Shown: positions 5,055 to 9,032 of the stretch, one piece after another
Numbering within the stretch: the stretch's first letter is position 1
How the letters are laid out: every line of letters begins with the position of its first letter
NCBI GenBank assembly: GCA_021846505.1
Contig: JAJZWV010000040.1
Location: 1-37,404 of the forward strand
DNA length: 37,404 nt
Source: Bacillota bacterium
Lineage (GTDB): Bacteria; Bacillota; Sulfobacillia; Sulfobacillales; JAIMBI01
Reading direction: 5' to 3'
The notes under the pieces: generated by a model
The model's database searches: none
What the model was told of the DNA's origin: nothing
The model's input: only the letters and a program-made list of their open reading frames with translations
Made by a program: the position numbers and the translations under genes

Positions 5055-5779
5055 CCCCCATGCGGGGCCACGTACTGGTGGTGGAGGACGTTACGGCGGC
5101 GGCGCTGGCGCTGTTCGCACGAGTGTTGCAGGAGGCCCGCGGGGCCAAAGTGGCGGTGGCGCTGTCGGGAGGCACAACGCCGCTCGAGATGTTTGACCAG
5201 CTGGGCGCGCCCGAAGCCCGCCGCCAGTGGCCCTGGCACCAGCTGGAACTGTTTTGGGGCGACGAGCGCCCGGTGCCCCCCGACCATCCCGACTCCAACT
5301 ACGGGCAAGCGCGCCGCCGCTGGCTGGACCGCGTGCCGGTGCCGCCCGGCCAGGTTCACCCCTGGCCCCTTCTCGACAATCTCTCGCCCGATGAGGCAGC
5401 GCGGCAATATGCCTCCACCCTCTCGGCCGTCCTGGGGCCTCGCCCCACGATGGACCTGACCTGGCTGGGCGTCGGCCCGGAAGGCCACACGGCTTCGCTG
5501 TTTCCGGGCTCGCCGGCGCTCACCCAAGCGGGCTGGACGGCCGCACCATACGTCGCGTCCAAAGGCAGCGCCCGGCTGACCCTCACCCCTGCGGCGCTTA
5601 ATTTGAGCCGACGCGTCGTCTTTCTGGCGCGGGGCCCGGATAAAGCCGCCATTGTCCGCCAGGCGTTTGCCGATCCGGCTGCAGGCCTGCCGGTGCAAGC
5701 CATCGCCCCCGCTGCGGACCCTTGGTGGATCTTGGACCGCGCAGCAGCGGTGGGCCTGCCGGCCTTTCCGGGCGCCTAG
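5051..5779 (+). CDS. pgl: 6-phosphogluconolactonase
   Basis: Hydrolyses 6-phosphogluconolactone to 6-phosphogluconate, the step between Zwf and Gnd. The product is 242 residues, of the NagB/RpiA/DevB fold. It has the phosphate loop VALSGGTTPLEMF, the segment FWGDERPVPPDHPDSNYG, and the catalytic-region motif GVGPEGHTASLFPGSP; the usual acidic residue before GH is Glu here rather than Asp. The start is taken as the ATG at 5051, which overlaps the opcA stop. GGGAGAGG at 5039-5046 would also serve the in-frame ATG at 5060. This is the last gene of the cluster: a GC-rich inverted repeat follows just after the stop. Confidence 0.93.
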   Translation: MTPMRGHVLVVEDVTAAALALFARVLQEARGAKVAVALSGGTTPLEMFDQLGAPEARRQWPWHQLELFWGDERPVPPDHPDSNYGQARRRWLDRVPVPPGQVHPWPLLDNLSPDEAARQYASTLSAVLGPRPTMDLTWLGVGPEGHTASLFPGSPALTQAGWTAAPYVASKGSARLTLTPAALNLSRRVVFLARGPDKAAIVRQAFADPAAGLPVQAIAPAADPWWILDRAAAVGLPAFPGA

Positions 5780-5782
5780 GCC

Positions 5783-5827
5783 GCTGGCGGGCGATGCCGT
5801 CGGGCCCACCCGGCACGGTCCGCCAGC
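5783..5827 (+). terminator. Candidate hairpin terminator after pgl
   Basis: The arms GCTGGCGG (5783-5790) and CCGCCAGC (5820-5827) are perfectly complementary. Inside them CCGT (5797-5800) pairs with ACGG (5815-5818) and CGGG (5801-5804) with CCCG (5809-5812). The hairpin begins 4 bases after the pgl stop. No T-tract follows, so it may be a Rho-independent terminator of the GC-rich kind or simply an mRNA 3' stabiliser. Confidence 0.45.
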
Positions 5828-6291
5828 AAGTTTGGGCGGCTCACCTCGTGGGTCGGCGCCGCGCTGGGGAAGAGCTGGGCGTGTCGGGCCCCAAGCCGCC
5901 ATGATGCGCTGCCTTACCGGCGCCGGCCCCTTCAGCGGGCTGGCCTGGGACGTGTCCTCCACTCAGGGCTACTTTCCAAGCGGGGCGCGCCGCCTATCCG
6001 TCCCACAGGAAACATCTTCCTGGCTGGTGGCGGTGGGCGCCTGCTGAAGCGCATCGTGGTCCCGTGATTTTTGCGCGGCACCCATTTCAGACGAATTCCG
6101 CCACTCCGGTGAAACCCGGCACGTTTTCTCGCTGACACGGCGCGCCCTGATGCTTGGCGGCCGCCAGCGGCGGACAGCGCCGGCCTCGCGGGGTGCACAG
6201 CGGCCGCTCTCCCGATATGGTGGCGGCGTGCCGGCAAGGCCGGGCCGATATATTGCGGCCCGCAGTGGCCAAACCAAAGGAGGTGCCTCAG
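5828..6291. other. Gene-free stretch before the first 3D-domain gene
   Basis: No supported gene is seen. Short open frames exist on both strands, but none has a family resemblance together with a ribosome binding site. A TATATT box at 6249-6254 could be a -10 element for the following gene, but no convincing -35 is found at the right distance. The conserved words of the ydaO/yuaA riboswitch seen before the second 3D gene are absent here. Confidence 0.5.
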
Positions 6292-6996
6292 ATGGCCTTG
6301 GAAGTTGCGAGCCGCGCTGAGCGGCTCACCCAGCCCATAATCAAGCACGTGAGCCAGATGGGGCGACTCTGGCAGTCTTGGCACCGCCGGGCGCGGCGGA
6401 TGGCTCGCGTGGGCGCCTCAGTGCTGGTGCTGGTGCTGGCCGCCGCTGGATCCGCGATGGCGCACGGCGACACCGCGGCGGCATCGAATGCGCGCCTGTG
6501 GAGCTTTTCGCCCGTGCACGCGTGGATGCGCCAAGCTCATCACCGGGCAGCCGCCGCCCCTGTGCACGCGCTGCGCCAGATTGATGGGCGCCCGGTGCTG
6601 CAAGTGCTGCATGTCATCGCGACCGCCTATGGCCCGACCTATGCGGCCAACTATCCGTATGGGCCGGTGGATGCGTACGGCCGTCCGCTGGCACCGGGTA
6701 TGGTGGCGGTGGACCCGCGCGTGATTCCGATGCGCAGCACGCTGTTCGTCACGGGCTATCACGACCGCGTGCTGCCCGCCAGCGGATTTGTCGGCCGCGC
6801 GATGGACACCGGCGGCGCCATCGCGGGCCATCGGATCGACATTTTCATGAACCAGGGCCGAGCCGCCGTGAGCCAGTTCGGCATTGAGCCGGTGACGGTG
6901 TATGTGTTGGGCGTGCCGGCGGCGCCGTCTGGCCATAACACCCAGTCCGCGCCGCCGCCCGCGCCCGCAGCGCTTCCGGCCGCGCGCCTTCACTAA
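6292..6996 (+). CDS. 3D-domain (Asp-Asp-Asp) cell-wall protein, membrane-anchored or secreted
   Basis: A 234-residue protein with a basic N-terminal stretch of about 40 residues, then a hydrophobic segment (VGASVLVLVLAAAGSAMA, about residues 42-59) that can be a signal peptide or anchor. The C-terminal 3D domain (about 103-205) carries the conserved aspartates in YGPVDA, AVDPRVIP and AMDTGGAIAGHRIDIF. 3D domains share the double-psi barrel of lytic transglycosylases such as MltA and occur in Gram-positive wall-remodelling enzymes, so peptidoglycan cleavage outside the cell is likely (inference). The ATG at 6292 is set by AAAGGAGGTG at 6276-6285. It ends in an Ala/Pro-rich tail. It is a paralogue of the gene at 7290 and lacks that gene's peptidoglycan-binding domain and riboswitch. 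Confidence 0.88.
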   Translation: MALEVASRAERLTQPIIKHVSQMGRLWQSWHRRARRMARVGASVLVLVLAAAGSAMAHGDTAAASNARLWSFSPVHAWMRQAHHRAAAAPVHALRQIDGRPVLQVLHVIATAYGPTYAANYPYGPVDAYGRPLAPGMVAVDPRVIPMRSTLFVTGYHDRVLPASGFVGRAMDTGGAIAGHRIDIFMNQGRAAVSQFGIEPVTVYVLGVPAAPSGHNTQSAPPPAPAALPAARLH

Positions 6997-7148
6997 AGCG
7001 GCGGCGGGCCCAATCTGGCGTTTTATGGCACATCCCGGCAAACGTGCGAGCGGGCGCCTCCCAGGCACCGGTGCACGCTTGCTGGCGCATGCGGCGTGGA
7101 CAAGCGCGCCTGGCGGACATGACGAAGTTCCAGCACTGCCGGTACAGT

Positions 7149-7266
7149 GCCGCTTAGGCCAAATCGTGGCGCCTTGCCACGACCGGGGGAACCAATTACG
7201 GGGTGAATCCGCCATCGAGCGGTAGGGGCGACTCGCGCCGCGAACCCGACAGCTAACTCCGGCGGC
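7149..7266 (+). promoter_or_regulatory. Cyclic-di-AMP riboswitch (ydaO/yuaA class)
   Basis: The leader of the second 3D gene contains, in order, the conserved words of this class: GCCGCTTAGG (7149-7158), CCGGGGGAACCAAT (7183-7196), GGGGTGAATCC (7200-7210), GGTAGGGGCGA (7221-7231) and CGAACCCGACAGCTAACTCC (7241-7260). GCCGC (7149-7153) can pair with GCGGC (7262-7266) to close the terminal stem P1. The class binds c-di-AMP and usually lowers expression of wall hydrolase and potassium transport genes. P1 ends only 9 bases before the ribosome binding site GAGGAGGT (7276-7283), and no T-tract terminator is visible between them. Control at translation initiation is therefore more likely than transcription termination (inference). 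Confidence 0.9.
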
Positions 7267-7289
7267 TAACTTCGCGAGGAGGTCATACG

Positions 7290-8138
7290 GTGAACCTTAG
7301 GATTCGTAGAAGCGCGTGGGGCACTGCCCTGGCGCTTTCGGCCGGCCTGGCCGGCGCTTTCGTGGCCGCTCCGCCGGCAGCGGCAGCCGCCCCACCCCCT
7401 ACCGCTGCGCTGGCCGCGCAGCACCCCGCCATGCGGCAGACCCTGGCCATCGGAGATTCGGGCCACTGGGTGTGCACCCTGCAAGCCGATCTGCGGCTGC
7501 TGGGCTATCCAAGTGTAGGGCCGATGGACGGCATCTTCGGCCCCGAAACCCAATCCGGCGTGGAAGCGTTCCAGCGGGAAAACGGGTTGCCGGTGACGGG
7601 GCGCACCAACGCGCAGACCTGGCAGGACATTTTGGCAGGGTTTCACCTTACCCCTTATCTCCCCCACACTGGCGACCCGGATGATGGGGGCGCGGCAGTG
7701 AGTCCCACGACCACCACGACCACGACGGCACCAAGCAGCGGGACCGCCGCCACGAGCACCGGGAGCACCACGCCGGGCCAGAACGGCACCCCCACCACCA
7801 TTGACGGCTACAAGGTCGTGGCCGTGTACCACATGATTGCCACGGCGTATGGGCCGAGCCTGCGGGACAACTATCCCTATGGGCCGGTGGATGCGTTTGG
7901 CCAGCCCCTGCAGGCCGGCATGATTGCGGTGGATCCTTCGGTCATTCCGCTGAAGTCTCGCGTGTACGTCAAAGGCTACACCGACAGCGTGCTGCCCGCG
8001 GGAGGCTTCTTGGGCCGCGCGATGGACACCGGCGGGGCCATCAAAGGGCACCGCATCGACATCTTCCTGAACCAGAATCCCCAGACCGTTTCCCACTTCG
8101 GCATTGAGCCGGTCACCGTGTACGTGCTGGGCAGCTAA
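7290..8138 (+). CDS. Secreted peptidoglycan-binding protein with 3D domain
   Basis: A 282-residue exported protein. A signal peptide (charged MNLRIRR, then a hydrophobic Ala-rich core to about residue 35) is followed by a PG_binding_1 domain (about 50-110, with GDSGHWVCTLQADLRLLGY and DGIFGPETQSGVEAFQ). A Thr/Ser-rich linker (about 135-165) precedes the 3D domain (about 180-281), with AVDPSVIP and AMDTGGAIKGHRIDIF. The layout suggests a wall-bound hydrolase (lytic transglycosylase-like fold), with the first domain holding it on peptidoglycan. The start is GTG at 7290 with GAGGAGGT at 7276-7283. The c-di-AMP riboswitch upstream ties its expression to the wall- and osmotic-stress second messenger. 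A strong hairpin follows the stop. Confidence 0.93.
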   Translation: MNLRIRRSAWGTALALSAGLAGAFVAAPPAAAAAPPPTAALAAQHPAMRQTLAIGDSGHWVCTLQADLRLLGYPSVGPMDGIFGPETQSGVEAFQRENGLPVTGRTNAQTWQDILAGFHLTPYLPHTGDPDDGGAAVSPTTTTTTTAPSSGTAATSTGSTTPGQNGTPTTIDGYKVVAVYHMIATAYGPSLRDNYPYGPVDAFGQPLQAGMIAVDPSVIPLKSRVYVKGYTDSVLPAGGFLGRAMDTGGAIKGHRIDIFLNQNPQTVSHFGIEPVTVYVLGS

Positions 8139-8148
8139 ATCGCCCTGC

Positions 8149-8178
8149 GAAGGCGCGGGCCCTCGGGCCGGCGCCTTC
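8149..8178 (+). terminator. Strong hairpin between convergent genes
   Basis: GAAGGCGC (8149-8156) pairs with GCGCCTTC (8171-8178), and inside it GGCCC (8158-8162) pairs with GGGCC (8165-8169). It lies 10 bases after the stop of the 3D gene and can also fold on the other strand to serve the convergent hydrolase gene. There is no long T-tract on the plus side (TCCATCAATT follows). Confidence 0.6.
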
Positions 8179-8190
8179 TCCATCAATTAT

Positions 8191-8226
8191 GGTCATGACG
8201 GTCATGGCAGTCATAGCGGTCACGAC
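8191..8226. repeat. Four imperfect 9-bp tandem repeats over the end of the hydrolase gene
   Basis: The units are GGTCATGAC, GGTCATGGC, AGTCATAGC and GGTCACGAC, head to tail. The last unit contains the stop codon of the minus-strand hydrolase. In that reading frame every further unit again supplies a TGA, so the gene ends in a row of in-frame stops three codons apart. Confidence 0.75.
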
Positions 8227-9032
8227 AGATGATGATGAAGCGCCGCCAAGGACCGCATCCACGCATCGCGTGCGGAGTCGACGTGATACGAGCGGCGCGA
8301 GTCGTTGAAAAACGCGTGCGGCGCGTCGGCGTACACCTGATACTGAAACGGCTTGCCCAGGGCGGACAGCTTGTCGGCCACCCCGGGCACCGCCTCGGTG
8401 ATGCGAGGGTCTTTGCCGCCGTAAAAGCCATACACCGCGCACGACACCTGGCTCAGCTGACGGTCGTCCGGCGCTGACCCGTAATACACCAGCGCGGTGC
8501 TGAGCCGCGTGCCCATGGCCGCCAGCTGGAAAGACAAAGCGCCCCCCATGCAGTACCCGATGCTGCCCACCGGCATGCCGCGGCTTTCGGGCGCGTCCCG
8601 CAGGTACCCCATCCACGCCACGAGGTCCTGGGCCATGCCGGCCATGTCGCGCGGGCCAAACAGCGCCTCCATCGTGGCTTGCAGGGCGGCTGCTTCATCG
8701 GCGGCCCGCTGGCTCATGTGCTCCTTCAGCACCTCTTGATCCCACCAGCTGCCAGGCGGCAGGGTGTCTAAGAAAGCCTTCAGCCGCTCGATGCTGTCGG
8801 CCGACAGCGGGGCGGGGCGGCCGCCGCGCGAGTACAGGTCGGGCGCCAAGGCCACATACCCCGCCTCCGCAAAGCGGCGGGCCATGTCCTGGATATGTTC
8901 GTCCGGCCCCCAGATTTCCTGGATCACCAGCACAGCCGGCAGTGGGTGCGACACATGCGGCGGCCGCACGAGGTATCCGTCCATCGACTGCCCCTCGCGC
9001 TGATGCACCACCCATCGGGCGTCATACTCCAA
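8220..9032 (-). CDS. Dienelactone hydrolase family protein
   Basis: A cytoplasmic alpha/beta hydrolase of about 270 residues. The catalytic triad of the family is visible: cysteine nucleophile in GYCMGG, aspartate in GGKDPRI and histidine in DAPHAFF, plus the conserved N-terminal strand VLVIQEIWGPDEHI. Family members open dienelactones or hydrolyse related esters; the substrate here cannot be told. The start is uncertain. A TTG at 9032 has a very strong purine-rich site (GGGAGGGGGAGA, 9047-9036 on this strand) just before it, while the in-frame ATG at 9056 has no visible site and would place that purine run inside the coding part. No other gene appears co-transcribed; the ferritin-like gene ends 35 bases upstream of the alternative start. 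Confidence 0.88.
   Translation of the reverse strand: MEYDARWVVHQREGQSMDGYLVRPPHVSHPLPAVLVIQEIWGPDEHIQDMARRFAEAGYVALAPDLYSRGGRPAPLSADSIERLKAFLDTLPPGSWWDQEVLKEHMSQRAADEAAALQATMEALFGPRDMAGMAQDLVAWMGYLRDAPESRGMPVGSIGYCMGGALSFQLAAMGTRLSTALVYYGSAPDDRQLSQVSCAVYGFYGGKDPRITEAVPGVADKLSALGKPFQYQVYADAPHAFFNDSRRSYHVDSARDAWMRSLAALHHHLS

Follow-up and report, generated by a model that had tools for sequence, protein, structure and literature searches.

A predicted c-di-AMP riboswitch whose pseudoknot overlaps the Shine-Dalgarno motif of a cell-wall protein gene in Sulfobacillia

Riboswitches for c-di-AMP have been characterized mainly as regulators of transcription. The RF00379 aptamers of ydaO/kimA in Bacillus subtilis and of kdp in B. 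thuringiensis share the aptamer and the OFF logic with the leader described here, but they regulate K+ transport by means of an intrinsic terminator (PMC6488665; PMC9960051). For the nlpC gene of Corynebacterium glutamicum, it was reported in 2023 that the c-di-AMP riboswitch represses translation and not the transcript level, and a pseudoknot between a CTCC motif and the GGAG of the ribosome binding site (RBS) was put forward as a hypothesis (PMC9960051). Even before that, blocking of the RBS had been suggested for Streptomyces (cited in PMC8079986). Translational c-di-AMP riboswitches are, therefore, already known as a kind. However, termination of transcription was reported for the rpfA riboswitch of S. 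coelicolor, in which a canonical terminator is likewise missing (PMC10117811), and thus the lack of a terminator does not by itself imply translational control. In the SAM-II, SAM/SAH, preQ1-II, and Tte preQ1-I riboswitches the Shine-Dalgarno (SD) motif or its 5' edge is part of the pseudoknot or junction of the aptamer, as at the locus studied here, whereas the aptamers and ligands are different; c-di-AMP is not among the members listed where PMC10907184 defines this direct-occlusion group.

We analyzed a 37,404 nt stretch of DNA (the window) from a bacterium whose nearest relatives are Sulfobacillus and Bacillota MAGs, and whose class we read from these relatives as Sulfobacillia. A first-pass annotation had placed a c-di-AMP riboswitch of the ydaO/yuaA type at 7149-7290 and had proposed a search with the Rfam covariance model. 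Using cmscan, the full RF00379 model (1-134) was matched at 7147-7283 of the forward strand with 75.2 bits (E 7e-16), well over the gathering score of 38 bits, and all conserved words of the class were found to be present. The annotation was thus borne out, and its coordinates were right within a few bases. Near the leader, the cmscan search returned nothing else beyond one sub-threshold chance match. The features of the locus are as follows:

7147-7283, forward strand: c-di-AMP riboswitch aptamer, full-length RF00379 match (cmscan)
7157-7160, forward strand: 5' strand of P1, GGCC (Rfam alignment)
7232-7237, forward strand: 5' strand of the pseudoknot, CUCGCG, located in the loop of the last hairpin of the aptamer, forming six Watson-Crick pairs with 7273-7278
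7264-7267, forward strand: 3' strand of P1, GGCU (Rfam alignment)
7273-7278, forward strand: 3' strand of the pseudoknot, CGCGAG, which overlaps the SD motif at its 5' edge
7276-7283, forward strand: SD region GAGGAGGU, from the sequence, with the core AGGAGGU at 7277-7283
7290-8138, forward strand: gene for a PG_binding_1 and 3D-domain protein of the secreted type, 282 aa, GTG start

Judging from these sequence features, the leader RNA would bind c-di-AMP. The diadenylate cyclase domain PF02457 is encoded once in the genome (E 8e-43), and the assembly (3.58 Mb, 119 contigs) contains four RF00379 matches. The fourth of these (locus L004, 1501-1641, minus strand of the locus; 40 bits) lies on the apparent RBS of a gene for a PG_binding protein, which has no in-frame ATG, GTG, or TTG where one would be expected; CTG or ATC may be its start codon.

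The protein encoded downstream of the window aptamer contains a PG_binding_1 domain (1.2e-15) and a 3D domain (1.8e-14), as had been annotated, and its relatives are 55-78% identical. Directly upstream, at 6154-6996 of the forward strand, a paralogue with the 3D domain only is encoded, and no riboswitch was found before this gene. Homologous 3D matches are also located upstream of the riboswitch gene in three congeners. For L044, which is the homologue from the cultured Sulfobacillus harzensis, the 3 kb upstream contained no RF00379 match above threshold.

The SD motif is a 7 nt consensus match located 6 nt upstream of the start codon, and the same 6 nt separate the end of the aptamer (7283) from the GTG (7290). 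As the first-pass annotation had stated, no terminator is visible: 0 terminator-like sites were found in 5700-8300, and thus the leader lacks the intrinsic terminator that separates aptamer and start codon in the transcription-terminating ydaO type, while the SD motif lies within or adjoins the structure that the ligand is predicted to stabilize. Transcriptional control is nevertheless conceivable if the ligand stopped RNA polymerase, or Rho terminated the untranslated message, without a canonical terminator. The S. coelicolor rpfA case is a precedent (PMC10117811), and a translation block can secondarily reduce the transcript level. However, a U-run terminator is missing, the start codon follows the aptamer so closely (6 nt) that no expression platform would fit in between, and the overlap of SD motif and pseudoknot is kept across the class, so that we regard this alternative as unlikely. 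Translational control at the window locus, which had been annotated as a variant of a terminating class, is very likely, although the C. glutamicum report and the Streptomyces proposal cited above mean that it is not the first case.

We consider it likely that the leader is a c-di-AMP riboswitch that switches translation off by occluding the SD motif directly. Upon binding of c-di-AMP, the aptamer would close both P1 and the pseudoknot 7232-7237 x 7273-7278. Because the 3' strand of the pseudoknot runs into the SD motif, docking of the 30S subunit would be blocked 11 nt upstream of the GTG, and the peptidoglycan-binding/3D cell-wall protein would not be made. At low c-di-AMP concentrations the pseudoknot would open and the SD motif would become free. 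The sequences show directly the aptamer and where it lies, the loop-tail pairing together with its covariation, and the lack of a terminator, whereas ligand binding, the sign of the switch (OFF), and its action on translation are inferred; the known members are likewise OFF switches.

The annotated control at the level of the RBS was, therefore, supported, both at the window and at about 50 loci, but a different element is involved. P1 as aligned pairs 7157-7160 with 7264-7267 and ends nine bases (7268-7276) before the SD core (7277-7283), exactly as had been noted, and it is the pseudoknot that reaches the SD motif. Thus, P1 is probably not the key regulatory element. The loop-to-tail pseudoknot that accompanies RF00379 aptamers is present (CUCGCG x CGCGAG). 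At the window it overlaps the SD region by 3 nt (7276-7278) and includes only 2-3 nt at the start of the SD motif, and therefore occlusion at this locus relies on adjacency. On its own, the loop-tail match of the window is weak evidence (p = 0.025 versus shuffled loops).

Could the aptamer be a degenerate and functionless remnant that was retained before the gene by chance? Many relatives score higher than its 75 bits, up to 110 bits, and some of the aligned pairs are mismatched. However, in addition to the intact conserved words, the orthologues of three congeners retain the aptamer with its CUCGCG/CGCGAG pairing at unchanged spacing, and we regard a remnant as very improbable. Folding of the single sequence 7130-7320 with ViennaRNA gave no informative signal (z about 0.4), and the method cannot represent a pseudoknot. 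A predicted hairpin, 7270-7312, pairs the SD motif with early codons around the GTG, and a similar AGGU/ACCU pairing occurs in the congeners; the hairpin is not more stable than shuffled sequence. If it formed, it could mask the SD motif also without ligand and would compete with the pseudoknot.

RF00379 was present in 58 of the 61 genomes searched, including that of the window, and 94 loci of the class, many of which are orthologues, were collected and their start codons assigned by rule. The spacing between the end of the aptamer and the best start codon was bimodal: it ranged from -11 to +16 nt for 50 loci, and was at least 29 nt, mostly 56-256 nt, for the rest. The fraction of 50 out of 94 is a biased rate, because some loci were chosen as neighbours of 3D genes. 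Among the automatically collected loci, 15 of 34 were RBS-adjacent, compared to 2 of 45 in a Bacillota-wide sample (Fisher p 4e-5). One locus, L082, encodes a glycosyltransferase and offers an alternative in-frame ATG; it was moved out of the group, leaving 49 RBS-adjacent loci. In one scan, terminators were found at only one of these 49 loci versus 25 of the 45 others (p 2e-9). The proteins of the RBS-adjacent group carry a 3D domain in 38 of 50 and a PG_binding_1 domain in 35 of 50 cases; half of the distant-start group are group-1/group-4 glycosyltransferases, and the remainder are ABC, KdpA, and other proteins. Within the lineage, the same aptamer thus precedes a terminator at glycosyltransferase and transporter genes, whereas at genes for secreted cell-wall proteins the SD motif is located in the knot.

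The pseudoknot was analyzed with an alignment-free test, in which the score of each tail paired with the loop of the same locus was compared to its scores with loops from other loci. The z values obtained are a guide and not a probability, because the permutation preserves composition and leaves shared ancestry in. For the 49 RBS-adjacent loci the helix score with the own loop was 16.7, compared to 14.0 +/- 0.33 after permutation, with a maximum of 15.2 in 10,000 permutations (z = 8.0). When one locus per distinct loop was used, covariation was retained (z = 7.7). The loci contain 28 different loop/tail helices, 26 of which have at least six pairs; examples are CUUUCC/GGAAAG, CUUCCC/GGGAAG, CUCCUUC/GAAGGAG, and CUCUCC/GGGGAG. 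An overlap of at least 3 nt (median 6) between pseudoknot and SD motif was seen in every one of the 48 loci scored, and the pseudoknot ends 4-15 nt upstream of the start codon. Loop-tail complementarity was also found in the Bacillota-wide sample (z = 7.7), and the crystallized ydaO RNA carries it as well, according to the printed construct sequence (CUCCUUCG x CGAAGGAG; PMC5393176), in a report that describes the pseudoknot of this RNA as stable. The pseudoknot is, therefore, a general feature of the aptamer in its ligand-bound form. What sets the RBS-adjacent loci apart is the location of the SD motif, which is within the 3' strand of the pseudoknot or abuts it.

The same loci bear on the opposite direction of control, a translational ON switch, in which the core CUCC (7257-7260) would pair with the GGAG of the SD motif in the ligand-free state, and the ligand would lock CUCC in the aptamer and free the SD motif. 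The core strand CUAAC[CU]UCC is indeed complementary to GGAG/GAGG in most RBS-adjacent loci. However, a CCUC-type core is also found in many distant-start loci, where the SD motif is far off, so that the complementarity may be a by-product, and sequestration by the core CUCC was not preferred as the main mechanism. In addition, the ligand-bound pseudoknot covers the edge of the SD motif, and the described c-di-AMP riboswitches are OFF switches (PMC9960051). An ON switch, therefore, seems quite unlikely, and the OFF switch by direct occlusion is preferred.

The closest described system, RSnlpC of C. glutamicum, resembles the window locus in its aptamer family, the downstream cell-wall gene, the lack of a canonical terminator, and the proposed CTCC x GGAG pseudoknot, but it belongs to another phylum and its protein is of the NlpC/P60 type. 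The mechanism of RSnlpC is a hypothesis on one sequence combined with reporter data, whereas that of the window leader is predicted from covariation over about 50 loci. The idea that a stem relaxes first, which was raised for RSnlpC, is not needed for the window locus.

In the glycosyltransferase leaders (L017, L109, L114, L115, L135, and similar ones), a GGGGG tail is complementary to the CCCCC of the 5' strand of the terminator, and in most of them it overlaps the pseudoknot strand, which is weaker there. From its sequence, the GGGGG tail is likely to act as an antiterminator, and the terminator-type and the RBS-adjacent leaders may share a common logic.

As far as the literature searched shows, the comparative support for the mechanism and the lineage-wide split of platforms have not been described before. 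The one earlier experimental report on translational c-di-AMP control ends in a pseudoknot hypothesis, to which about 50 loci now add comparative evidence. They also provide about 28 natural pseudoknot/SD sequences for probing the mechanism with compensatory mutations. Our judgement is evenly balanced on a wider reading, namely that in Sulfobacillia the pseudoknot itself would be the output device: its purine-rich 3' strand would serve as the SD motif of secreted peptidoglycan-binding genes and, in the same genomes, as the antiterminator strand of glycosyltransferase genes, so that one aptamer would serve two expression platforms depending on what follows the knot.
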